From: Epilithonimonas mollis
Lineage (GTDB): Bacteria > Bacteroidota > Bacteroidia > Flavobacteriales > Weeksellaceae
DNA length: 61,256 nucleotides
Assembly (NCBI RefSeq): GCF_900142325.1
Contig: NZ_FRAM01000006.1
Span: 1-61,256 of the forward strand
Direction: 5' to 3'
Part shown: piece after piece, positions 24,735-45,377 of the stretch
Numbering within the stretch: position 1 is the stretch's first letter
How the letters are laid out: each line of letters begins with the position of its first letter
Notes under the pieces: generated by a model
Seen by the model: only the letters and a program-made list of their open reading frames with translations
The model's database searches: none
Told to the model about the DNA's origin: nothing
Program-made: the position numbers and the translations under genes

Positions 24735-25370
24735 CTACTCATTTGGCTTTAAAAGTGTCCATGAGACAGAACTTATACTTGATGCTGTTAATGAGAAATG
24801 TACAGTGTCTGTAAATCCTTCAATTGGATTGATAGAAATACTTTTTATATAGATGCTATCAATATTCTTTTCGTAAAATTGTTGTCCTACGACTGTTATA
24901 ATATCATTATGCTCAAATACATCAATTAATTCTTTGATTTTTTCAGTTGGGTAATTTCTATTTTCTACATCTATTAAAATACCTTTTATGTCAATGTTCC
25001 ATGGTCTTGCTCCGAATCTTTCAATTACAACACCATCGCCACCGCTGACGCTTGTTTCAATTAAATTCTTCTCCCTACTGAAGTCAATCATCAAAGGAGG
25101 TGCGTAAATTGTGCCGTCACCATCGCTTAGTAACATACTTCCAAATTTTAAAATCTTATTAATGACTTGAGTTTGATTATTTCTAAAAACTTCATATATA
25201 AATTCGGTTTCTTCAAAAACTGTATCTATATCATCGTACATCTCGACATTATACTTATTTGGCTCTCTGGTAACAACCGCTTTATTGATGGCATTATTTA
25301 CCGCCATTATCCCAAATGCAGATGCGTAACGTTGTGCTAAATTGATTACAATTGATTCGCCTATTTTCAT
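24735..25370 (-). CDS. DUF6046 prophage protein (probable baseplate/tail part)
   Basis: A 211-residue protein whose core (TSVSGGDGVVIERFGARPW, then IDIKGILIDVENRNYP, and IEGFTDTVHFSL near the end) fits DUF6046, a family found in Bacteroidota prophages. The pattern of a beta-rich domain with PW...I.GIL resembles tail-hub or baseplate adaptor proteins of contractile phages; that role is inference. It follows the capsid gene with a hairpin between them. Few other tail genes remain here, which is odd for a baseplate protein. Confidence 0.65.
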   Translation of the reverse strand: MKIGESIVINLAQRYASAFGIMAVNNAINKAVVTREPNKYNVEMYDDIDTVFEETEFIYEVFRNNQTQVINKILKFGSMLLSDGDGTIYAPPLMIDFSREKNLIETSVSGGDGVVIERFGARPWNIDIKGILIDVENRNYPTEKIKELIDVFEHNDIITVVGQQFYEKNIDSIYIKSISINPIEGFTDTVHFSLTASSISSVSWTLLKPNE

Positions 25371-25392
25371 AATGTTAATTTTTTTGTAATAA

Positions 25393-25414
25393 AACCCACA
25401 TGAAAATGTGGGTT
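25393..25414. terminator. Hairpin between capsid gene and DUF6046 gene
   Basis: Arms AACCCACAT and ATGTGGGTT with a GAAA tetraloop. It lies just after the capsid gene on the minus strand and may be a partial terminator that lets the capsid message outnumber the tail message. Confidence 0.7.
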
Positions 25415-25442
25415 CTTTGTTTAAATAATATATTTATAAGGA

Positions 25443-26321
25443 TTATATTTTAGTAGAAACAATCGCCCCAATCCCTTTATTTCTGATAGGCATTGCAATA
25501 AATCTTTTGTCAAAACCTACAATCGTAGCCCTTAATTTTGGGTCTCTTACAGTCTCATACATTCCGACTGTTCCGTCAGCTCTCATGACCTCATCAGATG
25601 AAAAAGCGAATGAACAATAAGTGTCAGTATTGGCAGGAACTGCACCCCAAGAAACTTTTTTATAGTTTGTAGAATTGTATTTTGGATTCTGAGTATTTTC
25701 CAAAATATTAAATCCTGCAAATCTTTTCGGCTTCCCGTCAACAAAATCGGTAAGGTCTTTAAAGGCTTTCAAATCATATAGAATCAAATCCTCTGTGTGA
25801 TATGGGTCTAAAACCAAAAACCTTTTCTCAATTGGAATATTTTGTAGGTCAAACTTACGTTTTAAAGTAAGTATATTTTTCACATCCATTCTTTTAAATC
25901 CTTCTCCATTATCCTCCCCTGTTGTCAGAACAATAGGAGTATCACTACTATCTTCCAGTGGCGCATAGGCGTGCGCCGCTTTTTGTGCTGTTCTCGTTTG
26001 CAGTGCCATTCTATGACCATATATAACGCTCTCCAGTTTATCGTAGCTAAGTTCTACTGATTCCGGATTTCTCACTAATGTATTTTCAGTTTCAAATAAA
26101 TCCAGTTCCAGTGATAACGGAAGATCTTCACGCTCTTTAACGATGATTGGATAAGTTTCATTATTTACCAATACATCAGGACTAAAACCAGCTTCTTGCA
26201 GATTGATAACATCATTATCCACAAAAGGATTAAAATCTCGTGCATACTGTAAAAATGTTACTGCAGGGTAAAAACCCTCCATAATCTGACCTGTCCAAAC
26301 TTGCTTGTTTAATGTTGACAT
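25443..26321 (-). CDS. Phage major capsid protein
   Basis: A 292-residue protein beginning MSTLNKQVWTGQIMEGFYP. Features typical of Bacteroidota phage coat proteins include the long-armed N-terminus, QTRTAQKAAHAYAP in the spine-helix region, the LVLDPYHTEDLILYD segment and FAFSSDEVMRADG near the axial domain. It would assemble the HK97-like head shell. It sits directly after the head protease gene with a 29-base gap, the classic protease-scaffold-capsid order. Length and the absence of stops indicate a gene still under selection. Confidence 0.75.
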   Translation of the reverse strand: MSTLNKQVWTGQIMEGFYPAVTFLQYARDFNPFVDNDVINLQEAGFSPDVLVNNETYPIIVKEREDLPLSLELDLFETENTLVRNPESVELSYDKLESVIYGHRMALQTRTAQKAAHAYAPLEDSSDTPIVLTTGEDNGEGFKRMDVKNILTLKRKFDLQNIPIEKRFLVLDPYHTEDLILYDLKAFKDLTDFVDGKPKRFAGFNILENTQNPKYNSTNYKKVSWGAVPANTDTYCSFAFSSDEVMRADGTVGMYETVRDPKLRATIVGFDKRFIAMPIRNKGIGAIVSTKI

Positions 26322-26350
26322 TTTTTATTTTTTTTAAATTACTTTGATTT

Positions 26351-27466
26351 CTATTTATATTTAGCCTTAACCAATTTCTGATATAGTTCGGGGTTCTGCT
26401 CCAGTTCCTTTGGTGCGTTCTTTCTGTAATCATTCAAATCCCACTCGCTTTTAGGTTTTGCGACTGTATTGGAATTATTAACTGTTCCCTGTACGATACG
26501 CTCCGCAATGACCATTGGATTCTTCCTAGGACTGCTTTCTAAAAAACTTTTTGTTCCTGCAAAATCTTTCTTGAACATTCCCAATATGTGTTTTTCTTGC
26601 TTTGCCGTTATTTGTCCGTTTCTGATTGCTTGTGTTGTAAGGTCTTTGGCTTCGCTATCAGTTGAGGTTTGCTGTTCATTCAGCTGATTTTTGATTGCTT
26701 CCAAAATATCGTCATTCGATACGTCTTCTGCCAGTCCTAACAACTCAATTATTGAAGTTTTTAAATTATTTGCATCCTCAATTTCCTGAATAATTTTAGT
26801 GTCGGAAGTATTGGCACTGAAATTAAATTTCTTGATTAATTCTTTCTTTAAGTCCATATTTTTACTGTTAAAATAATTTTTATTGTACAAAGCATCGAAG
26901 CGTGCAAATGCTTCTTTTGTAGGTAATTCTTGAGGATTGAAATTGGCATTTATATTATTTTCAGAATTAATAACACCGCTTATCAATCCCTCATCCAATG
27001 CCTGTTCTGCACTGAACCAGTTATCTCCGACCAACCATTTCTGAACATATTCAGCACTTTTGCCTGTTTTTAATGTTAGTTTTTTTATAAAGTTGGCTTC
27101 TATGGAACGTAATAGTTTTGCGTTACTCTCCAAATGCTGTGCAGTTCCGAACCCTCCACCCGATGGGGCGTGTATCATCAAATAACCATTTTCGACCATA
27201 TAGACATCTTCCACGGAAGCACAAATGACCGCTCCCATACTTGCCGCTATCCCTATAATATCTATGGTTATTTCAGATTTACAATTACTGATAGCATTAC
27301 ACATTATATTTCCCTCAAACACACTACCGCCATAGGTATGCAGTTTGATGTTAATATGTTTTTCTTTCTGTTCCAGCTGTGAAAGAGCCGATACAAATAA
27401 AGAACCGTCACCGTCGTAAATATCGCCGAATGCTTCTAAAACATTTTCTTTGATTTCAAAATTCAT
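26351..27466 (-). CDS. ClpP-like prohead protease with scaffold-like tail
   Basis: A 371-residue protein. Residues 1-165 are a ClpP/S49-like serine protease with nucleophile S76 in GIAASMGAVI, H99 in MIHAPSGG and D148 in GDNWFSAEQA, the spacing seen in ClpP. After a linker comes a helical, charged region (KKELIKKFNFSANTSDTKII ... LTTQAIRNGQITAKQEKHI) of the kind that acts as an internal scaffold. It matures the phage head. It precedes the capsid gene on the same strand. Confidence 0.85.
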   Translation of the reverse strand: MNFEIKENVLEAFGDIYDGDGSLFVSALSQLEQKEKHINIKLHTYGGSVFEGNIMCNAISNCKSEITIDIIGIAASMGAVICASVEDVYMVENGYLMIHAPSGGGFGTAQHLESNAKLLRSIEANFIKKLTLKTGKSAEYVQKWLVGDNWFSAEQALDEGLISGVINSENNINANFNPQELPTKEAFARFDALYNKNYFNSKNMDLKKELIKKFNFSANTSDTKIIQEIEDANNLKTSIIELLGLAEDVSNDDILEAIKNQLNEQQTSTDSEAKDLTTQAIRNGQITAKQEKHILGMFKKDFAGTKSFLESSPRKNPMVIAERIVQGTVNNSNTVAKPKSEWDLNDYRKNAPKELEQNPELYQKLVKAKYK

Positions 27467-27568
27467 TTCTTTATACTTTAAACACCGTTTAAACTCTCTT
27501 GTTTTCGGTTTTTATCTTCTTCCCGAGTTAACACCTCAGAAAGAAGATAAACGCCTTGAAAATCCTAC

Positions 27569-27871
27569 TTAATTAGTTTTGTATATGGAAGTATTTTTTG
27601 TTTCTCTATAATAAATCCTGCTACTTCTCATACCGTTCTCTGATACAGAAAACAATTCGCTTGCTACGCTATCTACATCGTCCATAAACTCCAATCCTCT
27701 GCGTACACCTATTTCTATGGCTTCAAAATCAACACAATAATTGTCAAAGACAGTAAGTATTTTACTTTTCTTTCCATTTTTCATTGTGATTGTGCTTACT
27801 AGCGCATTAATCTTTTCAGGAATCAAATCGATTTGTTCACTGATGATGCTGTGTGTTATTACGTTATTCAT
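27569..27871 (-). CDS. Hypothetical prophage protein
   Basis: A 100-residue soluble protein (MNNVITHSIISEQIDLIPEKI...). Its start overlaps the end of the upstream gene by 8 bases, so they are probably co-translated. No family recognised. The space after it (27467-27568) holds a loose inverted repeat, ATCTTCTT with AAGAAGAT, ahead of the head protease gene. Confidence 0.6.
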   Translation of the reverse strand: MNNVITHSIISEQIDLIPEKINALVSTITMKNGKKSKILTVFDNYCVDFEAIEIGVRRGLEFMDDVDSVASELFSVSENGMRSSRIYYRETKNTSIYKTN

Positions 27872-28073
27872 TTTGTTTGGTATTTAATTCTTTAAGTTGT
27901 TTTTTTGCATTGATTCCTAAGTAAGATTGGAAAGTCCTTTGAGATATTTTGTATTTGGGTTCTATCTGCTCCCAGTAAATATTTTTTAAAAAAAGGTCTT
28001 CATTTTTTTTCTCCAATACTATGTTTTGAATTTCAATTACTCTTGCTAAATAGTTTTTACGATTGTAGGACAT
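27864..28073 (-). CDS. Small prophage protein, possible HTH
   Basis: A 69-residue basic protein from the ATG at 28073 (MSYNRKNYLARVIEIQNIVL). The ORF can open at 28097, but that start falls in a hydrophobic run unlike the rest. The part YKISQRTFQSYLGINAKKQLKEL reads like a helix-turn-helix, as in many small Bacteroidota phage genes. Overlaps the next gene by 8 bases. Confidence 0.55.
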   Translation of the reverse strand: MSYNRKNYLARVIEIQNIVLEKKNEDLFLKNIYWEQIEPKYKISQRTFQSYLGINAKKQLKELNTKQNE

Positions 28074-28115
28074 ATAAAAAAATGTATATTTGTACAATCT
28101 TTAAGTTTTGTGAAT

Positions 28116-28147
28116 AGACATCCCACTGGTGGGGTGTCTTTTTTTTA
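28116..28147 (+). terminator. Rho-independent terminator, plus strand
   Basis: Stem AGACATCCCA (28116-28125), loop CTGG and stem TGGGGTGTCT (28130-28139), followed by a run of eight T's. By orientation it stops plus-strand transcripts, opposite to the phage genes around it, so it may block antisense reading into the antirepressor gene. Confidence 0.8.
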
Positions 28148-28149
28148 TC

Positions 28150-28749
28150 TTAGTTCCTAAGCATATCTATCATGTCCTGATAGCCGAATAGTAATTCATT
28201 TTTGTTCTGCATGGCTTTTTGATAAAGGGCGTTTACTACCGTGTCTGCTTGTTCGGTATTGAATTCTTTGTTTACCATTACTCTTTTAACATACGCAGAA
28301 GTAAGATTTAATTCTTTGGCTACCTTGTGCATATCGCCCCATCTTAAATAGTTTCTTATCGTATTGATAAGTTCCACACGCTTTGCAGATACGCTATTGA
28401 TATTTGTTCTTTTGAATTGTGGCGTTACTAAGGCTTTAGCGATGGCTACCTTCTCCATCTCGATAAAATATTGTCTCGCCTGTCGCCCCTGTTCTGTTTT
28501 TTCTACCATTGCCAACTCCTTTGCCATACTGATACTTACCACAAATTCTTTAAGTGGACGACCTCCGTTAGAGTTTTTGATAAATTTATCAAAAACCTCA
28601 AAGTCTTGATTTTCAATAAATCCGTATTCATTGATTCGGTTTTTTATCCAATGAGCAAACTCTTGTTTGCTTCCTAAAAAATTGTGCAATTCTCTTGCAG
28701 ATACGGCACGTTTGCCATTTTGTTCTGTGATTTTGATTAGTTGTGTCAT
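28150..28749 (-). CDS. AntA/AntB-type phage antirepressor
   Basis: A 199-residue protein. The N-terminal ~95 residues (VSARELHNFLGSKQEFAHWI ... EFVVSISMAKELAMVEKTEQG) are an AntA/AntB antirepressor domain, which counteracts a phage repressor or controls replication. Residues ~130-195 form a second domain that closely resembles the C-terminal part of the next gene upstream (RWGDMHKVAKELNLTSAYVK). Four bases separate the two genes. Role inferred from family and from the divergent repressor at 29350. Confidence 0.85.
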   Translation of the reverse strand: MTQLIKITEQNGKRAVSARELHNFLGSKQEFAHWIKNRINEYGFIENQDFEVFDKFIKNSNGGRPLKEFVVSISMAKELAMVEKTEQGRQARQYFIEMEKVAIAKALVTPQFKRTNINSVSAKRVELINTIRNYLRWGDMHKVAKELNLTSAYVKRVMVNKEFNTEQADTVVNALYQKAMQNKNELLFGYQDMIDMLRN

Positions 28750-28753
28750 CTAT

Positions 28754-29107
28754 TTAGTTTTTGAGTGTTGTTACCATCTTTTCATAATCAGCTAACAAAG
28801 ATTTTTTATTAATTAAAGCTTTGTTATACAATTCATTAAGAACATTATTGTCAAAACATTCATCATTTAAAATATTTTCGACATAGGCAAAAGATACTCT
28901 TAACTTCTTTGCCACTTCCGAAACATCCTGACGGCTTAAGTATTTTTTAATTAATTGTAGATGTTCATTTTTAGAAGTACTGTCTGATAATTTATTTAAT
29001 AATTTACTTATCAAATCTAACTGACGTTCAAAAAGATTCTGATAAAATTCAGATTGTCCTTTCCAGAATTCTTTATCTTTTTGTAAACTTTTAATTTGCT
29101 CTTCCAT
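28754..29107 (-). CDS. Coiled-coil protein sharing a domain with the antirepressor
   Basis: A 117-residue protein from the ATG at 29107 (MEEQIKSLQKDKEFWKGQSE). The first ~55 residues form a coiled coil. The C-terminal part (SRQDVSEVAKKLRVSFAYVE ... LYNKALINKKSLLADYEKMV) is paralogous to the end of the antirepressor just downstream and looks like a DNA-binding helix-turn-helix. The ORF opens at 29128, but ATG 29107 directly follows the stop of the gene upstream (TAGCATG), which fits tight coupling. Confidence 0.6.
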   Translation of the reverse strand: MEEQIKSLQKDKEFWKGQSEFYQNLFERQLDLISKLLNKLSDSTSKNEHLQLIKKYLSRQDVSEVAKKLRVSFAYVENILNDECFDNNVLNELYNKALINKKSLLADYEKMVTTLKN

Positions 29108-29108
29108 G

Positions 29109-29285
29109 CTATTGTTTGCAATTTTCAATTTGTTCCTTTAATAGTTCTGCCGATCTCTGGCGGATTTTCTTTGCCTTTTCAGAATTGAACACAAAATCTA
29201 AACTCATGGTAACTGTTTGTAAAGTGCAATTAAATTCATCTTTGATTTTATGTTTCAATTCGGGGTGTAGTAATATTTTTTTCAT
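29109..29285 (-). CDS. 58-residue early prophage protein
   Basis: A short ORF, MKKILLHPELKHKIKDEFNC to a stop at 29109, in the position of a Cro-like early gene: first on the minus strand, divergent from the repressor at 29350. VTMSLDFVFNSEKAKKIRQR suggests a small helical protein, possibly DNA binding. The pattern of a short protein ending RQRSAELLKEQIENCKQ occurs in Bacteroidota prophages, by memory. Its stop is followed by the next start after one base. Confidence 0.6.
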   Translation of the reverse strand: MKKILLHPELKHKIKDEFNCTLQTVTMSLDFVFNSEKAKKIRQRSAELLKEQIENCKQ

Positions 29286-29318
29286 TACTTTGTCTCGTTA
29301 AATTTCTAAAGCAAATAT

Positions 29319-29363
29319 ATGAGAGAAATCTCTATTAAAACAAATTTTTATGAGAGAAATTTC
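29319..29363. promoter_or_regulatory. Duplicated operator overlapping the repressor start
   Basis: ATGAGAGAAATCTCTATT at 29319 is repeated as ATGAGAGAAATTTCAATT at 29350, where it is also the start of the repressor gene (M-R-E-I-S-I). The core AGAGAAATCTCT is a near-palindrome of 5-bp arms. A related word, GAGATTTCTCTC, occurs inside the gene near 29490. This is the expected layout for repressor binding at the divergent prophage promoters. Confidence 0.6.
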
Positions 29364-29757
29364 AATTTTAAAGGAAAAAATTTTACAATATATTGAATAT
29401 AAAGGAGTTACGAAATATGAATTTTATAAAAACACTGGTGTTTCAAATGGCGTTTTGTCACAAAAAAGCGGTTTATCTGAAGAAAATTTATTGAGATTTC
29501 TCTCGTACTACAAAGACGTTAATCTTGATTGGTTATTTTCCGACAAAGGTCCTATGCTTAAAGAACATAAGAAAGGGAGTATAAGCCAAAATATTACAGG
29601 AGATGGTAATACACAATCAGGTTACGGTAGCATCATTACAGGAGATAATAAAAAGCTTGTAAAAGAATTACAAAAGAAATTGGATAAATGTGAGGGCGAG
29701 TTAAAAGAAAAGGATAAGACTATAAGTCAATTAGTAAATCTAATGAGTTCAAAATGA
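29350..29757 (+). CDS. Prophage repressor-like protein (HTH)
   Basis: A 135-residue protein. Residues 1-70 are an XRE/CI-like helix-turn-helix domain (KEKILQYIEYKGVTKYEFYK ... VNLDWLFSDKGPML), the common Bacteroidota phage repressor form. A glycine-rich link with SQNITGDGNTQSGYGS follows, then a coiled coil (LVKELQKKLDKCEGELKEKD), probably for oligomers. It is divergent from the early lytic-type genes and its start lies inside an operator-like repeat. No S24 peptidase domain is present, so it would be released by the antirepressor rather than by RecA. Confidence 0.75.
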   Translation: MREISILKEKILQYIEYKGVTKYEFYKNTGVSNGVLSQKSGLSEENLLRFLSYYKDVNLDWLFSDKGPMLKEHKKGSISQNITGDGNTQSGYGSIITGDNKKLVKELQKKLDKCEGELKEKDKTISQLVNLMSSK

Positions 29758-30311
29758 AAGAAATAGAACAAAATATTACAGGTAGTAACAATTTACAAGT
29801 AGCCGTAAATAATGGGAAAATTGTTAATACAAAACAGTTTAAAAACATTATAGAAGTAGTACACGACCCAAGTACACATATAACAGTTAACCAGGCGTAC
29901 GAAATAAAGCAGAAAATAACGGATATTGCTTCAATGGTTGCTACAAATCAAAGCGACAAAGCTTCTGCATTTAAAAGAGAATACATAGCGTTTGGAAAAC
30001 AGTTTAAAATACCTAAATATAACTTACTTCCAGCGGAACAGTTTGACGATGCTATTTTGTGGCTTAACAAAAGAACCGCATATCACGGCAAAAAAAATCT
30101 AAGACAAGGCAATACAGATGAGTGGAGAAAAAAGCAATATACAGCCATTTATGCCCGTATCAAATCGCTAAATATGACTAAAGAAGACTTGCTTATATTT
30201 GCCGAGCAGAAACTCGCTTTAAAGTCAAATTTGGAATCAATAAAAGATTTAAGCGATACACGTCTGCAAAAGTTATACAAATACATCATTGCTATAAAAC
30301 CAAAAGCATAA
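29754..30311 (+). CDS. ORF6C-domain prophage protein
   Basis: A 185-residue protein that starts within the ATGA at the end of the repressor gene. It begins with EQNITGSNNLQVAVNNGK, which resembles the QNITGDGN link of the repressor, and its main domain (~60-180) fits ORF6C: FKREYIAFGKQFKIPKYNLL and later FDDAILWLNKR. ORF6C often accompanies antirepressors and is thought to bind DNA. The shared QNITG motif suggests the two proteins interact or arose together. Confidence 0.7.
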   Translation: MKEIEQNITGSNNLQVAVNNGKIVNTKQFKNIIEVVHDPSTHITVNQAYEIKQKITDIASMVATNQSDKASAFKREYIAFGKQFKIPKYNLLPAEQFDDAILWLNKRTAYHGKKNLRQGNTDEWRKKQYTAIYARIKSLNMTKEDLLIFAEQKLALKSNLESIKDLSDTRLQKLYKYIIAIKPKA

Positions 30312-30641: not shown

Positions 30642-31373
30642 TTAGCCTTTACTTTTGGAATTACCGTTAAAGGGTTGTTGTAGTAGCTGGTGAAGATCAT
30701 ATGGATGTCTTATTTTATTTTTAAAATCCTGAATAGGATTTTCTGTATATGAAAATTTAACCAGGCTCATGATTTTTTCACAAATAGTTCTTGAAGGTTC
30801 AAGTACATTCATTTCGAATGCCTGTATTTCAAAATTGTTTACAGTCTCAAGCTGGTTTTCTCTTTCTAGTGTTTCTCCGATAAGTGATTGGATTTTCCTT
30901 TTGCTAAAGGGTTCATGATTTCCCAACCAGCTTGATTCTAATACGATAAAATCTCTGACTTGTCCAAAGTCGCCTTTAAATAGCTTAGTATAGGAATGAG
31001 CTGTTTTTCTATTCATTCCCATTTTTCTAGTTATTCCATCAATTTCAATTTCTGGAAGTTCATCCTCAATTGCTAGACTGACTTCTTTAAGTTTAGCTTT
31101 CATTCTACTATCTGTTTCATTTTCGTTTCTTAGGATAACTAAATCTATATCTTCTGAAAATCTTTCTATTAACTTGTAGCATTTAGAAAGTGCAGTGCCA
31201 CCTTTGAATACGACATATTTTCCAATATTATTAAGATTGATTTTATATAAAGCCAATGTGACCCAGTAATCCTTTTCTACATAAATTGAGCGTATCTTCA
31301 ATTTATCAGCTGTGAATCGTATAGCTTGTTCAAATAATTTTTTATTGTGATGTAAGTTCATATTAGATTCCAT
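30642..31373 (-). CDS. AbiEii-type nucleotidyltransferase toxin
   Basis: A 243-residue protein of the AbiEii/AbiGii family (type IV or bacteriostatic toxin, a nucleotidyltransferase that disables host RNA such as tRNA). The active-site pattern is present: VEKDYW with K34, FKGGTALSK at 57-64, and the acidic pair in SEDIDL at 73-78. It overlaps the antitoxin gene by 16 bases. The protein ends soon after HPYDLHQLLQQ, whereas relatives usually run another 40-90 residues, so the C-terminus may be shortened. Confidence 0.8.
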   Translation of the reverse strand: MESNMNLHHNKKLFEQAIRFTADKLKIRSIYVEKDYWVTLALYKINLNNIGKYVVFKGGTALSKCYKLIERFSEDIDLVILRNENETDSRMKAKLKEVSLAIEDELPEIEIDGITRKMGMNRKTAHSYTKLFKGDFGQVRDFIVLESSWLGNHEPFSKRKIQSLIGETLERENQLETVNNFEIQAFEMNVLEPSRTICEKIMSLVKFSYTENPIQDFKNKIRHPYDLHQLLQQPFNGNSKSKG

Positions 31374-32083
31374 TTTTTTGATTGTTCTAAAATATTTCCA
31401 ATTCCCATAAAATTATATTTTGTGATTGGATTCAGGGTTTTAAGAATACTGTTAGAATAGGTTTCCAAATGAAGTTCATCCAATAATGCTCCTAATAATG
31501 CTCGGGTAGAAGGTGGATACTTTTGAACCAGTCTTACCAATTGTTCTATATCTTTTATTTTATAATCAGAAGCTATAGATAGTAAACGTCCAATTGCTTT
31601 CTCATTTGAGGTGTCGGGAATTTTTTTAATGAATTTTAAACAATCTAGAAACTGTAAGTAGGGGATGTTTTCTTTGTTAATAACATTCGGTTGTTTGATG
31701 AAATTAATTATATATCTCTCTCTTCTTAAAAAGGGTCTTGTATTATTTTTTCCAATTTGTATGGTGTTGCTTACTTGAGACGTCAGACCCAAAGAATTGT
31801 AGATGCTATAACCGGTGAGATATCCAGTGATTTTATTATTTTCTTCTAGTAAATCTTTTACAATCTGATATTGATCTGGGAGTAATTCTCCAAATACAGT
31901 TGACTCTGGTTTATAAAATTTCCCCTTTGATATTTTTTTTATTTTGCCCTTTTCTGCTAATCTATTCAAAGCTTTTATAGCAGCTTCTTTGTTTTCCACC
32001 GATAGGGTAAAATCCTTATAGGTGAAAATATATCCCGTGGGTAATCTGTTAATCTTATCTTTAACTATATCAGATGTTTTCAT
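31358..32083 (-). CDS. AbiEi-like antitoxin (DUF6088)
   Basis: A 241-residue protein with an N-terminal winged helix (PTGYIFTYKDFTLSVENKEA ... LAEKGKIKKISKGKFYKP) and a C-terminal AbiEi-like region (GYLTGYSIYNSLGLTSQVSN). The family neutralises the AbiEii toxin and represses its own promoter. It is the first gene of the pair and ends inside the toxin start. An inverted repeat and a -7 box lie just ahead of it. Confidence 0.8.
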   Translation of the reverse strand: MKTSDIVKDKINRLPTGYIFTYKDFTLSVENKEAAIKALNRLAEKGKIKKISKGKFYKPESTVFGELLPDQYQIVKDLLEENNKITGYLTGYSIYNSLGLTSQVSNTIQIGKNNTRPFLRRERYIINFIKQPNVINKENIPYLQFLDCLKFIKKIPDTSNEKAIGRLLSIASDYKIKDIEQLVRLVQKYPPSTRALLGALLDELHLETYSNSILKTLNPITKYNFMGIGNILEQSKKWNLI

Positions 32084-32170: not shown

Positions 32171-32220
32171 GGTAGTCACCGTACCTTTGTAACGTTAGTT
32201 ACAAAGGTACGGTGACTACC
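32171..32220. repeat. Perfect 50-bp palindrome with 4-nt loop
   Basis: Two arms of 23 bp, 32171-32193 and 32198-32220, are exact complements around the loop GTTA. Each arm holds TACCTTTG, a full match to the -7 consensus TAnnTTTG, so both strands carry one. On the plus strand a TTTG at 32158-32161 lies 20 bases ahead of it, the usual -33 spacing. It sits between the end of the gene at 32232 and the AbiE promoter. It has no T-run, so it is not a standard terminator. Confidence 0.9.
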
Positions 32221-32231
32221 TAATCTTCTAC

Positions 32232-32831
32232 TTACTGGGCGATGAATTTTATAGAACTTACTATTTCAAAATCTGAAATCTTATAGTCATCATAAAAGAA
32301 AAGCCCATTAATATATCTCTTTATTGGATGGTATAAATCTTTAGGAAATAATCCATTTTGAATGGTCTTATAGTCATTGGCAACACTGAAGTATCCTCTG
32401 AATTTTCCTCTGCCATGTCTTAGAAAACCAATTCTGGTCAGATATCTTGTTATCTTATGTCTATTGAAATTAGGATCTTTATTATTGTCGGTAATTAAGA
32501 AATAGTCTTTAACATAAAATGTTCTAATATTACTTATTGCATTGCAACTATTATCTTTCCAAGTTTCTAAAGTAGGTTTCTGTATGTACGAAACATCATG
32601 AAGTTCACATTCTATTTTAATTACATCATTTAGACAAATGAAATAATCACCATCAACTAGTAAAGTTTTTTTGTGTAAGTAAATTCCAAATGCCATTTCG
32701 GAAATTTCTTTATCTGTATAATCAAGAATGTTTTTTGATTTTCCGTAAAGTTTATATGCTAATCCAGATGATTCAGAATTATTTTTAATTTTATCTAATT
32801 TAGATTTAGTTAGAATTTTGATTTCATTCAT
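32232..32831 (-). CDS. Hypothetical protein upstream of the AbiE pair
   Basis: A 199-residue soluble protein (MNEIKILTKSKLDKIKNNSE...). It contains HKITRYLTRIGFLRHGRGKF and YFSVANDYKTIQNGLFPKDL, which look folded, but I know no family. It is on the same strand as the AbiE pair, with the 50-bp palindrome between them. It may belong to the defence cluster; no motif shows a function. Confidence 0.6.
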   Translation of the reverse strand: MNEIKILTKSKLDKIKNNSESSGLAYKLYGKSKNILDYTDKEISEMAFGIYLHKKTLLVDGDYFICLNDVIKIECELHDVSYIQKPTLETWKDNSCNAISNIRTFYVKDYFLITDNNKDPNFNRHKITRYLTRIGFLRHGRGKFRGYFSVANDYKTIQNGLFPKDLYHPIKRYINGLFFYDDYKISDFEIVSSIKFIAQ

Positions 32832-33707: not shown

Positions 33708-34022
33708 ATGAGTAAATTTTATGTTACAGCAATCAGAGAAGGAATTTATCCATCATTTATTACGCACGTTTTAGTGCATTCTCCATTATCGACAGGAAGA
33801 CTTACTAAAGGTCGCATTTTAACTAAAAACGAAGTGATTGCTTCGATGCATCTAGGGCATACTTATTCCACAGCAACTTATAATTACCTTCGTGGCTCGT
33901 GGTCTGAGGGTGCAAACATTGGAACTGTAAGAGTAGGCTCAGTGCTATATTTAAGAACTGATAAAGATTCTACAGCAAGAGACAACCTTGGAAACTTGTT
34001 GTTAATAGATGAACTCAGATAG
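33708..34022 (+). CDS. DUF3892 protein
   Basis: A 104-residue protein that fits DUF3892 along its whole length: YVTAIREGIYPSFITHVLVH, LTKNEVIASMHLGHTYSTAT and the end VGSVLYLRTDKDSTARDNLG. The domain is small, found in bacteria of many phyla, and of unknown function; it often travels on mobile DNA. It is monocistronic with a clear hairpin after it. No signal peptide. Confidence 0.8.
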   Translation: MSKFYVTAIREGIYPSFITHVLVHSPLSTGRLTKGRILTKNEVIASMHLGHTYSTATYNYLRGSWSEGANIGTVRVGSVLYLRTDKDSTARDNLGNLLLIDELR

Positions 34023-34331: not shown

Positions 34332-36998
34332 CTATTCTATAATTTTGATGTTCTTTGCACATTCTCCTAATGGATTTGTTCCGATTTCAAAGCTTACTAA
34401 CTGACCATGTCTTAACGATTTCCAATCATTTCTATTTCTCACATCTATAAAATCATACATATTAGCATAGTATTTGGTCCTGTCTTCTTTTTCTAAGAAA
34501 ACGAATGGTTTAGTTGCATTACCATGATTTCGACTTATCGTTCCAATGTGCTTCGAAGTATTAATTGAAGTTTCCTCTAAAAGATTACTGATAGAATAAT
34601 CATCAAATTTTTCATAATATTTGTGGATTATTTTTGCTTTGATATTTGTTAAACTAATTTTATTATCATTATCTATAATAACATTTTTTAAATATTCTTG
34701 ATTTTCTTGCAATGTTGTTAAAGGAATCATCTGAATACATGCGAGTATAGTTTCGCAAAAATTTTTGATCATTTTGGGATCTAAAATTTTTTTATTGTTA
34801 CATTCTGTGTAAACTGTGATTGCTCGTTTGAAATGTCGTAGAGAATTATCATAATCCTTTTCAATTGTTGCATAACTTTGCCCCATATGATTGTACATTG
34901 AAATCAATTCCGTGTAAGCTATTCTTTCACTTTTAGAATCAAGCTTAGTTTCTAATAACTCTTTTAATTTTGCAATTCCAAAGTTATATTCTCTCTTAGA
35001 ATTATAAATTCTGACAAATAGAAATGATACAGATGGATTTTCGACATTATCATTTTTTAACTTTTCTGCATATTCTAATGCCAAATCTGGATCTTCCATA
35101 GAGAATAAGAGAAACTGCGAATAGAAATATATTAATTTATGATTTTTTGGATCGATTTCTAGACCCAATTTGTAGTCATCTTCCGCACCTAATAAATCTC
35201 CGGAAGTAGCCTTTATAAAAGCACCTACCCTATAAGATTCAAAATGACTAGGTACAATATTCCGTGCTTCGGCAACCTTTTTTAATGCTTCCTCATAATT
35301 AGTTTTCCACGAAAAATGTAAAGCTTCTTCTAAAAATTTAGCAGCAATTTTTTCATTCGAATTTCTGTAAGTTATTGCATTAATTTCAAATGGATTAAAA
35401 TTATTTATTTTTTTGAGCTGAGAAGCACTTAATGTCAAATCGCGTAGCTTGGTTGAGATTTTCTTTATAAATCTTATGTCAATTGTATAATTTTTAGTAA
35501 GAAAATCTTTTGCAAAATCAGAGATGTAATAATTTGTTTCCTCTATATTACCACCCTCAGTTATTTCGGAGCTAATCAATGTGGTTTTAAATAATTCTAA
35601 CAAATATTTTCTTACATCTATAGGCTCTAATTCAGATAGGTATATTATCTCGGCTAATCTAAGCGTCTTTCTTGACGCTCTTATAGTATTTAAAATTTTT
35701 ATAGCTCCATCACTTAATTTATCATATACATTTATAAGGCAAAAATTTAATAAATCTTCTTTATTATTTAGTACTTCAGATGGACTAATGCCTGCTTCAA
35801 CTGTATTTACAAACCATTTTATAGCCAATGGATTATGATACAACTTTGTTGATATGTCAATTAAAGTTTCTTGAGGTAATGTTAGTAGTATCTCGCTGTC
35901 TCTTATTCTTGCAATTTCTCTAATCAATCTTGCCGATTCTGTATCCGAAAAACCTTTCAGTTTTCTTCTATATTCTAGCTCACCTAATCCAATTCTAGAA
36001 GTGATAATGATATTGCATCGCATTTGAGCTTCCCTGATAAAACTAATAACTTCTTCACTTTGAATAGTTTCTAAATTATCTATTATAAGAAGAGTTTTAA
36101 ATAAAGTGAAATATTCTAAAATATCAGAGAGTTGTTCTTTTGTATTTTTCTCGAGTTTTAGGGTATCAGATATAACATCAACTAAACCAGTATAGTTTGT
36201 AATAGCATCATAAATTTCTTGTATACCCTTTGCTGTTAACATTGTTGTTTTAGCTGAAGTCCAAATAACTAATTCAAAGGGGCTGCTATTTCCCATATCT
36301 ACAATATCATAAGCAATCTTTAATGCTAATGCAGTTTTGCCTATCCCGCCATCACCAATAATACTGACAACTTTATTTGAAAAAACTAATTTTTTTATAT
36401 CATCTATATCATTCTTACGACCAATAAAACCAGTTTCGTCGAAGTCAGGTAATGGTAAGTTATGTATTACTTTTGTCTCGGGTGTTTGATATTCTAAAGA
36501 TGGTAATGATAATGTTAACACATACGATGGATCATTTTCAATTTTCTTTCTAGTTTCTATTGTAGTAGGCCAATTAAAAGGATCTGTAGATTTTAATTCC
36601 GAAACAAAATTATATAGAGAGGTAAAATCGCCGCCAAGAAGTGGTCTTGTATGCATTACTCTATTTCTAATAGGCGTGAGATCTGAAAGATTTGAAAATA
36701 TTTTTTTTAAATAGTCTGATTCATCTTTAGTTAGAAAAGCTTTGTTTTTATTGAGAATTGTAAATGTATCGCTAAAGTCAATATAATCTATAGCATCCTC
36801 CAGATTTAATAAAATGTCGACACCAGGGTTTTCTTTCAAAAATCTTTCATTCACTTTCTGGACTAAATCAGAATTTTGAAAAAAAGTTAAATCTGAGTTG
36901 TATGGAACTATTTTCTTAATTATTATAGATTTTAAATCGATTTCAATTCCATAAATTAAAGCAGCAAGCGTTAACCTCACTTCCGTGACTTTCGACAT
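34332..36998 (-). CDS. STAND ATPase: HEPN-like, NB-ARC, TPR and cold-shock-like domains
   Basis: An 888-residue protein with four parts. Residues ~1-150 are helical and contain R111-N-R-V-M-H116, the R-x4-H motif of HEPN RNases. Residues ~185-480 are an NB-ARC/STAND ATPase: Walker A GDGGIGKT at 215-222, Walker B LLIIDNLE with D307, and the sensor TSR at 333-335, then winged-helix-like segments. Residues ~560-800 are TPR-type helices, likely the sensor. The last ~70 residues (HIGTISRNHG ... FVFLEKED ... GQLVSFEIGTN) resemble a cold-shock/OB domain that binds nucleic acid. STAND proteins of this build serve as anti-phage or stress sensors that oligomerise and switch on an effector. An XRE regulator lies 101 bases upstream on the same strand. 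Confidence 0.75.
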   Translation of the reverse strand: MSKVTEVRLTLAALIYGIEIDLKSIIIKKIVPYNSDLTFFQNSDLVQKVNERFLKENPGVDILLNLEDAIDYIDFSDTFTILNKNKAFLTKDESDYLKKIFSNLSDLTPIRNRVMHTRPLLGGDFTSLYNFVSELKSTDPFNWPTTIETRKKIENDPSYVLTLSLPSLEYQTPETKVIHNLPLPDFDETGFIGRKNDIDDIKKLVFSNKVVSIIGDGGIGKTALALKIAYDIVDMGNSSPFELVIWTSAKTTMLTAKGIQEIYDAITNYTGLVDVISDTLKLEKNTKEQLSDILEYFTLFKTLLIIDNLETIQSEEVISFIREAQMRCNIIITSRIGLGELEYRRKLKGFSDTESARLIREIARIRDSEILLTLPQETLIDISTKLYHNPLAIKWFVNTVEAGISPSEVLNNKEDLLNFCLINVYDKLSDGAIKILNTIRASRKTLRLAEIIYLSELEPIDVRKYLLELFKTTLISSEITEGGNIEETNYYISDFAKDFLTKNYTIDIRFIKKISTKLRDLTLSASQLKKINNFNPFEINAITYRNSNEKIAAKFLEEALHFSWKTNYEEALKKVAEARNIVPSHFESYRVGAFIKATSGDLLGAEDDYKLGLEIDPKNHKLIYFYSQFLLFSMEDPDLALEYAEKLKNDNVENPSVSFLFVRIYNSKREYNFGIAKLKELLETKLDSKSERIAYTELISMYNHMGQSYATIEKDYDNSLRHFKRAITVYTECNNKKILDPKMIKNFCETILACIQMIPLTTLQENQEYLKNVIIDNDNKISLTNIKAKIIHKYYEKFDDYSISNLLEETSINTSKHIGTISRNHGNATKPFVFLEKEDRTKYYANMYDFIDVRNRNDWKSLRHGQLVSFEIGTNPLGECAKNIKIIE

Positions 36999-37099
36999 AG
37001 TAAATTTTAGTTTGAAATTATGATTAAAGATTAATATGTATATACATAAATATATTTAATAAAATAATAATGTTTTTTTTAATCGGAAAAAATATTTTT

Positions 37100-37381
37100 T
37101 CAGTGCTTATTTGATAGTTTAATATAGTTTTTCATATCAAAATCAAAGAGTTCTTGTATTGTGACATTAAGTTCTTTACATATTATAAGCAAGGTATCAT
37201 ATCGAGGATTGGTATGACCTCTTTCTAATTCACCAATTGTCTTTTTTGCATGTCCAGTTCTTAAACCCAATTCTTCTTGGGAGATAGGTTTATTAGTCTC
37301 AATATTTATAACTTTCTTTCTTAATTCAGAAATTCTATAACCGAGAGCTTTTTTAAAGTTATTAAGTTCAATTTCATTCAT
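37100..37381 (-). CDS. XRE-family regulator upstream of the STAND gene
   Basis: A 93-residue protein with a Cro/CI helix-turn-helix (SQEELGLRTGHAKKTIGELE, then NPRYDTLLIICKELNVTIQE). The order XRE-then-STAND on one strand with 101 bases between suggests an operon in which the XRE protein limits STAND expression. Upstream, at about 37418-37435, a GGATAC...GTATCC inverted repeat could be its operator. Confidence 0.85.
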   Translation of the reverse strand: MNEIELNNFKKALGYRISELRKKVINIETNKPISQEELGLRTGHAKKTIGELERGHTNPRYDTLLIICKELNVTIQELFDFDMKNYIKLSNKH

Positions 37382-38125
37382 TAAGTGTAAAATTCCAAGT
37401 TTGGAGTTAAATTTTAGGATACATATAGGTATCCTTTTGTTATTTTTTATTATATTTGTAAAATAAGTTACTGCAATGTAACTTTGCGATACTTCAACGA
37501 AATATTAGAAGCTATTGCTTAGAATCTCAATTCGAAAACTGGTAATTTTAGTATACGAGATGGTAAGCAAGAAGCTCACGACCTAGGCGTGGGCTCTCTT
37601 ATCTGTATACAAGGTATACCAGTACCCCGAATTGGATAATGTAGAGTTCCATGCCGTTTTCTTTTTATGCAGTTCTGTTTTTCTACATTGTCTTGTTAGA
37701 TTCTAAGACGCTTACAACATAGGGTATCTGTTGGATACAATAGGGTGTACAACCTGTTGCGGCTGTTTTTAGGCTTACTTGGGAAACGTTATTTTTCATT
37801 CATATTAATTCAAGATGTGTTGTGGCAGAAGGCTTTTGCTACGTCTGTAGTTTGCTTTCTGCCTGGCATGTCGGGAATTGTTAGAGTTGGGGATTTTATG
37901 TTTTAATTCTTTATTAATTGAGATATTAAGTTATTTCTTTTTTATTTCATTCTCTTCTCTTTCTCTTCTCATTCTCTTTTGACAATATGAATTAAGGGTA
38001 ATAGAGCGTAAAGCATAACGTAACCATTGGAAACAAAAGAGCCCTCCTTGCATTTGAGTTTATTGGAAGTGACACAATGCATTGGAGAGCCTTAGAATTT
38101 AACGAATTAAATCTATTTCAAAAGT
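37382..38125. other. Structured noncoding region upstream of the SusC gene
   Basis: About 740 bases with no gene. It holds a GGATAC/GTATCC dyad near 37418-37435, a perfect 7-bp dyad AAGTTAC/GTAACTT at 37465-37484, and a strong stem-loop AGCTCACG/CGTGGGCT at 37573-37595. Further on, words around 38030-38095 (GAGCCCTCC, then GGAGAGCC) can also pair. The 37540-38000 part has higher GC than its surroundings, as an RNA leader or ncRNA would. I cannot assign a known RNA family. Confidence 0.45.
37573..37595. ncRNA. Stem-loop of a possible leader RNA
   Basis: AGCTCACG (37573-37580), loop ACCTAGG and CGTGGGCT (37588-37595) form an 8-bp stem with one G-U pair. It has no T-run directly after it, so it is more likely part of a folded RNA than a terminator. 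The RNA call is inference from structure alone. Confidence 0.3.
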
Positions 38126-45295: not shown

Positions 45296-45377
45296 AATAA
45301 AAATGATTTATAAATTGGTTTTGCCTACTCTCTTTTACAGGTTTTCGGCTTTTCCTGCTTCTGCTGGCCTGCAGAAG

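Follow-up and report, generated by a model that had tools for sequence, protein, structure and literature searches.

We analysed a stretch of Epilithonimonas mollis DNA comprising 61,256 bp (assembly GCF_900142325.1, contig NZ_FRAM01000006.1, positions 1 to 61,256 of the forward strand), which is referred to in the following as the window. The locus of interest contains two genes on one strand, separated by a gap of 101 bp. The first encodes an XRE-type protein of 93 residues (HTH_3 in Pfam at 9.4e-11) and the second a protein of 888 residues, for which a single copy was found in the genome (Table 1). An earlier note had called both reading frames, and their boundaries, strand and ATG starts proved to be correct. 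The note had also placed them in a defence cluster, a term that finds support both in the AbiEii/AbiEi pair nearby, a type IV toxin-antitoxin system, and in the analysis of the hotspot described below. The DUF3892-like gene beyond the large gene scored slightly below the Pfam cut-off for DUF3892. A prophage remnant at 24735-30311 encodes a DUF6046 protein, a weakly capsid-like protein, a ClpP-type head maturation protease and an AntA antirepressor. Between the AbiEi gene and an open reading frame of 199 residues (32232-32831) lies a terminator-like perfect inverted repeat of 23 bp with a 4-nt loop (32171-32220). The only Rfam match of the window at gathering level was a DUF805b cis-regulatory RNA (45322-45358, minus strand).

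Table 1. Positions of the features discussed, in window coordinates; residue numbers refer to the 888-residue protein.
Feature	Position	Strand	Basis
AbiEii/AbiEi type IV toxin-antitoxin pair	30642-32083	-	PADLOC, 2.9e-84 and 2.2e-56
DUF3892-like gene, far flank common to the L025 cassette (another genus)	33708..34022	+	74% amino acid identity, 72% DNA identity
HEPN-NB-ARC(STAND)-TPR-cold-shock protein	34332..36998	-	ORF of 888 aa, ATG; Pfam, homologues, model
Divergent cold-shock (OB) domain, about residues 815-888	34335..34556	-	Profile, PF00313 in some homologues, model
TPR-type helical repeats, about residues 545-800	34599..35366	-	
NB-ARC/STAND NTPase core, about residues 186-430	35709..36443	-	Pfam and invariant columns
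Walker A, residues 215-222 (GDGGIGKT)	36333..36356	-	Invariance in 61 homologues
Predicted HEPN RNase domain, residues 1-162	36513..36998	-	
R111-N-R-V-M-H116, HEPN R-x4-H motif	36651..36668	-	Invariance in homologues
XRE/HTH_3 protein, first gene of the hotspot, not STAND-specific	37100..37381	-	ORF of 93 aa, ATG; Pfam
Repeated structured RNA element, about 230 nt	37443..37673	+	Copies also at L025 and L058-L094; covariation
Promoter-like box TATATTTG	37451..37458	+	Fits Bacteroidota -7 box TAnnTTTG

Domain architecture and distribution of the 888-residue protein

The earlier note had suggested a HEPN domain at the N-terminus, and the structure model of this part is indeed HEPN-like, with the four-helix fold of the superfamily. 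Its best structural match was 8vz6, which belongs to the AbiF/AbiD (Abi_2) HEPN RNases with an RNA antitoxin; Foldseek returned nothing at E 0.001 for the N-terminal model, and Pfam matched Abi_2 in 2 of 12 relatives. The R111-N-R-V-M-H116 motif read in the earlier note is present and conforms to the conserved R-x4-6-H of HEPN proteins. R111 and H116 were invariant in 61/61 diverse homologues, in which N112, P119, L120 and D124 were conserved at 90% or more, and an alignment of 70 members had invariant columns from R111 to L120 and at G123, D124 and F125. Among 228 matched proteins of 600 residues or more, 226 carried R-x4-H within residues 61-200, the other two being entries of 777 and 820 residues. 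Judged from these alignments, the conservation of R-x4-H is far beyond chance, and the model suggests that the N-terminal domain is likely the RNA-cutting end, a predicted HEPN RNase.

Pfam assigned NB-ARC to residues 201-335 at 7.5e-9, which passes the gathering threshold, while the outer limits of the core given in Table 1 were inferred from conserved blocks. The Walker A (G215-T222), Walker B (D307) and sensor (T333/S334/R335) residues named in the earlier note were all found. Invariant columns in the 61 homologues were G217, G218, G220, K221, D307, T333, R335 and P390, so that the protein has the Walker motifs, the sensor arginine and the conserved downstream proline of the STAND NB-ARC clade. 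No HTH domain was matched by Pfam in the 888-residue protein at E up to 1.

For the TPR-type helices and the cold-shock-like C-terminus, which had likewise been proposed before, support came from the profile of 70 homologues. On the single sequence, Pfam matches to TPR were weak only and the match to CSD was below threshold (0.15). The profile, in contrast, had its best match to PDB entries of TPR proteins at 2e-12 and reached cold-shock proteins with a best E of about 0.001-0.005 at profile positions of about 818-883. PF00313 is precomputed in part of the homologues, and the structure model of the protein has beta strands at 817-886. By eye, the cold-shock strands are of the FGFI...FFH type in Bacillota rows and of the FVFIE...YFAH type in Bacteroidota rows. 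The profile and the homologues are thus consistent with an OB-fold related to CspB that has RNP-like aromatic strands. A fold search with the whole model gave TPR-type rows only and was uninformative for HEPN or OB.

A search of 5.8 billion proteins yielded 293 matches out of 7999 scored candidates, and among the best 120 of these matches all were full-length with an identity of 55% or more. A homologue on a Planococcus plasmid, 28% identical, gave 113 matches when used as the query, of which 110 were new and the named ones mostly Bacillota, bringing the family found here to some 400 members. Family members are entered in databases under names such as NB-ARC protein, cold shock CspA family protein or 'LuxR family glucitol operon transcriptional activator'. 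The distribution is patchy: the remaining 22 genomes of the genus (two of them less than 90% complete) have no full-length copy, and one carrier, G047, was found among 58 other relatives. In overlapping genome samples, homologues were present in 0/394 other genomes for the phylum, in 1/394 for the order and, by profile search, in 4/394 other genomes for the class, two of the latter being distant. A scan of genome contigs with the single-sequence query gave 2 loci only. At least 80% of the query was covered in 3 of 42 records of plasmid-borne homologues, and one plasmid copy adjoins a type I restriction-modification (R-M) system. Three contigs of a viral collection hold homologues; as read by eye from the open reading frames, one homologue directly follows holin-like and amidase genes and another lies between phage structural genes. 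Searching 50,697 phage records with tblastn gave no homologue. The neighbours of homologues vary by locus, some of which lie amid housekeeping genes, and no fixed target operon was seen among those read.

The XRE gene, the adjacent RNA and the hotspot

In the earlier note the XRE gene had been taken for the protein's own regulator. In 12 relatives with a readable flank (L023 was left out, its flank being cut by the contig end), we judged by eye every open reading frame of at least 45 residues in the 700 bp preceding the STAND gene. Eleven of them lacked an HTH-like ORF (L002, L003, L010, L011, L012, L014, L015, L016, L022, L024, and L026). The twelfth, L025 of G151 in a different genus of the family, has an XRE gene ahead of a HEPN-STAND gene of 917 codons. 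The L025 HEPN-STAND protein is 28% identical to that of the window over 409 residues, and the two XRE proteins share 18% identity. Next to the XRE genes the flanking DNA of the two loci is 86% identical over 235 bp, and at the opposite end, which includes the DUF3892-like gene, it is 72% identical over 469 bp. Because this flanking DNA is common to both, we regard the two loci as different XRE-STAND cassettes in one frame. The closest relative of the window XRE, an HTH protein of 63% identity, is encoded at L079 beside unrelated cargo. On an Acinetobacter plasmid, a partial NB-ARC homologue is preceded, two genes upstream, by an HTH gene whose annotated neighbour is a RelE/ParE toxin.

The 231 bp shared by the two loci are a repeated element, which matched in 25 of 59 searched genomes (own included) and four times in the genome of the window. 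For the hotspot set we took the flanks of 37 copies to a length of about 10 kb at most, shorter at contig ends, and added the window and G151. The counts leave out two G015 copies that resemble G007 ones and, with few exceptions, element matches with E above about 1e-20. At 38 of the 39 copies, the element is flanked within 150 bp by a gene of at most 140 codons that is directed away from it; the remaining copy, L090, is truncated by the contig end. The sequences of the 38 slot proteins diverge widely; HTH_3 is matched by 26 of them (E 0.01) and further HTH models by part of the set. The slot of the XRE gene is thus occupied by short, mostly HTH genes at 38 of the 39 site copies, and the idea of a dedicated regulator was not borne out. 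We attribute the XRE gene to the site rather than to the STAND protein.

Of 36 copies, 14 had a PADLOC match at 1e-8 in the first cargo gene (180 codons or more) and 22 had none. The matches comprised methyltransferases or restriction subunits (L060, L072, L083, L084, L087, L094), Septu PtuA/PtuB (L067, L081), PbeA (L088), MzaE (L085), a NucC-like protein (L075), a dGTPase (L076), mad3 (L066) and PDC-S06 (L071). Control genes chosen by an equal size rule at arbitrary positions in 14 of the hotspot genomes gave a match in 1 of 20 cases (mad2). The difference corresponds to a one-sided Fisher p of 0.005 for copies that are not independent (20 genomes, 31 copies from one genus). Known or candidate defence genes are over-represented among the other cargo of the site.

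The repeated element is predicted to form an RNA structure. RNAalifold proposed 34 pairs for the 39 copies, in which 97.4% of the cells can pair. Twelve pairs change on both sides, with 90 cells versus 25.6 in shuffles (0/500), and in a partner-sliding control the double-sided changes fell to 17 or fewer cells. Based on this covariation, we regard the element as a genuine structured RNA. Rfam gave no match to it at E up to 1, and we dropped a known RNA such as 6S or tmRNA as a candidate, the window containing neither tRNA nor tmRNA. A box ahead of the RNA structure, TATATTTG, fits TAnnTTTG, the consensus of the Bacteroidota -7 box; in the 39 copies, T29 and A30 of this box are invariant and T33-G36 are conserved at 90% or more. 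If the box is real, the RNA would be transcribed away from the XRE gene. The AbiF match had raised the idea that the RNA might be the antitoxin of the HEPN protein, which we did not adopt because the RNA also accompanies R-M, Septu and other cargo.

A covariance model detected the RNA in 25 of 156 genera and, counting the genome of the window, in 41 of 295 genomes of the class. Of 20 further loci picked from its matches, the 5 strongest have, by eye, a short HTH-like gene pointing away within 150 bp. The 15 weaker ones are without an HTH-like neighbour, as are the weak matches L049, L050 and L052 (L040 is cut by a contig end), and the RNA-HTH link thus fails for weak relatives of the RNA. Several of the 15 resemble integrative elements by eye. 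An rteR sRNA, a component of CTnDOT-type elements, was noted near the weak relatives L136 and L143, a hint that the RNA family also rides integrative elements.

Proposed function and relation to known systems

The most probable explanation, in our view, is that the 888-residue protein is a single-gene NLR-like protein, likely in abortive infection, whose predicted HEPN RNase is probably held off by the NB-ARC STAND switch until the TPR/cold-shock-like part senses a putative infection-linked signal. It is based on the four-part layout, the invariant R111, H116, K221 and D307, the HEPN-type model, the patchy distribution, the copies on viral-class contigs and the defence-rich site. The HEPN sites would be held apart as long as the protein is an ADP-bound monomer. 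Binding of a ligand, most likely phage or damaged RNA or nucleoprotein, to the TPR/cold-shock end would favour an ATP-bound oligomer, in which the HEPN domains could pair, in the manner of the metal-independent RNase dimers of their superfamily, to form a composite R-x4-H active site. The paired domains would then cut cellular RNA and halt growth before phage release, and the XRE protein likely represses the cassette. In other STAND proteins the sensor is located distally. Because of the distal position of the cold-shock end, we assign to it the role of an RNA sensor rather than that of a substrate guide, which is the least certain step.

Three other readings were weighed. A HEPN-STAND RNase serving the host under stress or in the quality control of RNA, with the cold-shock end sensing cold- or damage-induced RNA, would account for that domain, for the homologues amid housekeeping genes and for the empty search of phage records. 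We consider it unlikely, since the patchy presence, the copies on plasmids and viral-class contigs, and the hotspot suit defence better. The STAND-TPR layout and the glucitol activator name, which JGI gives to several homologues, would fit a transcription regulator of the MalT/GutR type, the N-terminus of which would bind DNA. The mark of such regulators is a DNA-binding HTH domain. The protein is without an HTH match in Pfam, however, its N-terminus is HEPN-like with an invariant R-x4-H, and among the homologues read the neighbours vary by locus, with no fixed target operon seen, which makes this reading quite improbable.

That XRE and STAND form a toxin-antitoxin pair, with XRE as antitoxin or dedicated repressor, is suggested by their common strand and short gap, by the equivalent arrangement at L025 and by the HTH gene on the Acinetobacter plasmid. 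The relatives without an upstream HTH-like ORF, the dissimilarity of the two XRE proteins and the occurrence of the nearest XRE relative beside other cargo make it very improbable. We return to the NLR-like protein and add a tentative proposal on its surroundings, which we hold to be possible rather than probable. The XRE gene and the new RNA may constitute a portable RNA-HTH head that caps interchangeable Bacteroidota defence cassettes and regulates or mobilises R-M, Septu, HEPN-STAND and other systems, with the HEPN-STAND-cold-shock protein, a putative RNA-sensing and RNA-cutting NLR, as one cargo. The RNA-HTH hotspot would offer a simple route to further Bacteroidota defence systems, including cargo missed by current models.

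Avs and bacterial NACHT (bNACHT) proteins follow an NLR-like single-gene STAND logic of effector, switch and repeat sensor, and the TPR part of Avs recognises phage terminase or portal. The window protein shares this logic but differs by its NB-ARC clade, HEPN effector and cold-shock end. The weak hits PDC-M34B and mad8 were the only ones from PADLOC at an E limit of 0.1, with no match to such Avs models as its library may contain.

The earlier note had proposed a candidate undescribed defence system. The HEPN-STAND-TPR-cold-shock order and the defence setting hold, but "undescribed" does not, because this architecture has been published before in predicted form: Anantharaman et al. (2013; PMC3710099) describe bacterial HEPN-STAND proteins with a C-terminal cold-shock OB-fold, and a table therein lists HEPN fusions as "STAND-ATPase, TPR, S1" and calls them mostly active. 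The window protein has the same order of N-terminal HEPN, STAND NTPase, (TPR) and C-terminal cold-shock-like OB-fold, a likeness at the level of the architecture described there, for which a B. cereus accession is named. Relative to that work, the hotspot setting, the Bacteroidota branch and the domain model are added here. In some databases the family predicted in 2013 carries the name of a sugar-operon activator. Among the papers and passages listed from the literature searched, which excludes most subscription journals, no functional test of the HEPN-NB-ARC-TPR-cold-shock family was seen. Should the family consist of RNase-armed NLRs whose sensor end binds RNA, it would tie plant- and animal-like NB-ARC immunity to RNA cleavage.

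According to PMC12373285, Clostridioides difficile AbiF is smaller and is kept silent by an ncRNA of its own, whereas the HEPN domain of the window is fused to a STAND switch and the adjacent ncRNA accompanies many unrelated cargos. CoCoNuT type IV restriction systems also combine HEPN RNases with cold-shock-like OB-folds and predicted RNA targeting but, according to PMC11090510, are multi-gene McrBC GTPase systems without a STAND/NB-ARC core. Cold-shock and HEPN domains appear among conflict-system parts in Kaur et al. (2020, 2021; PMC7159879, PMC8195603), and the DefensePredictor study mentions four validated systems with HEPN domains (PMC13092281). In the C-terminal cold-shock part of the Rossellomorea marisflavi homologue (P0189), residues 817-865 match, at 1.8e-9 and under the model cut-off, the NCBIfam retron Se72 effector, another cold-shock-type defence effector.
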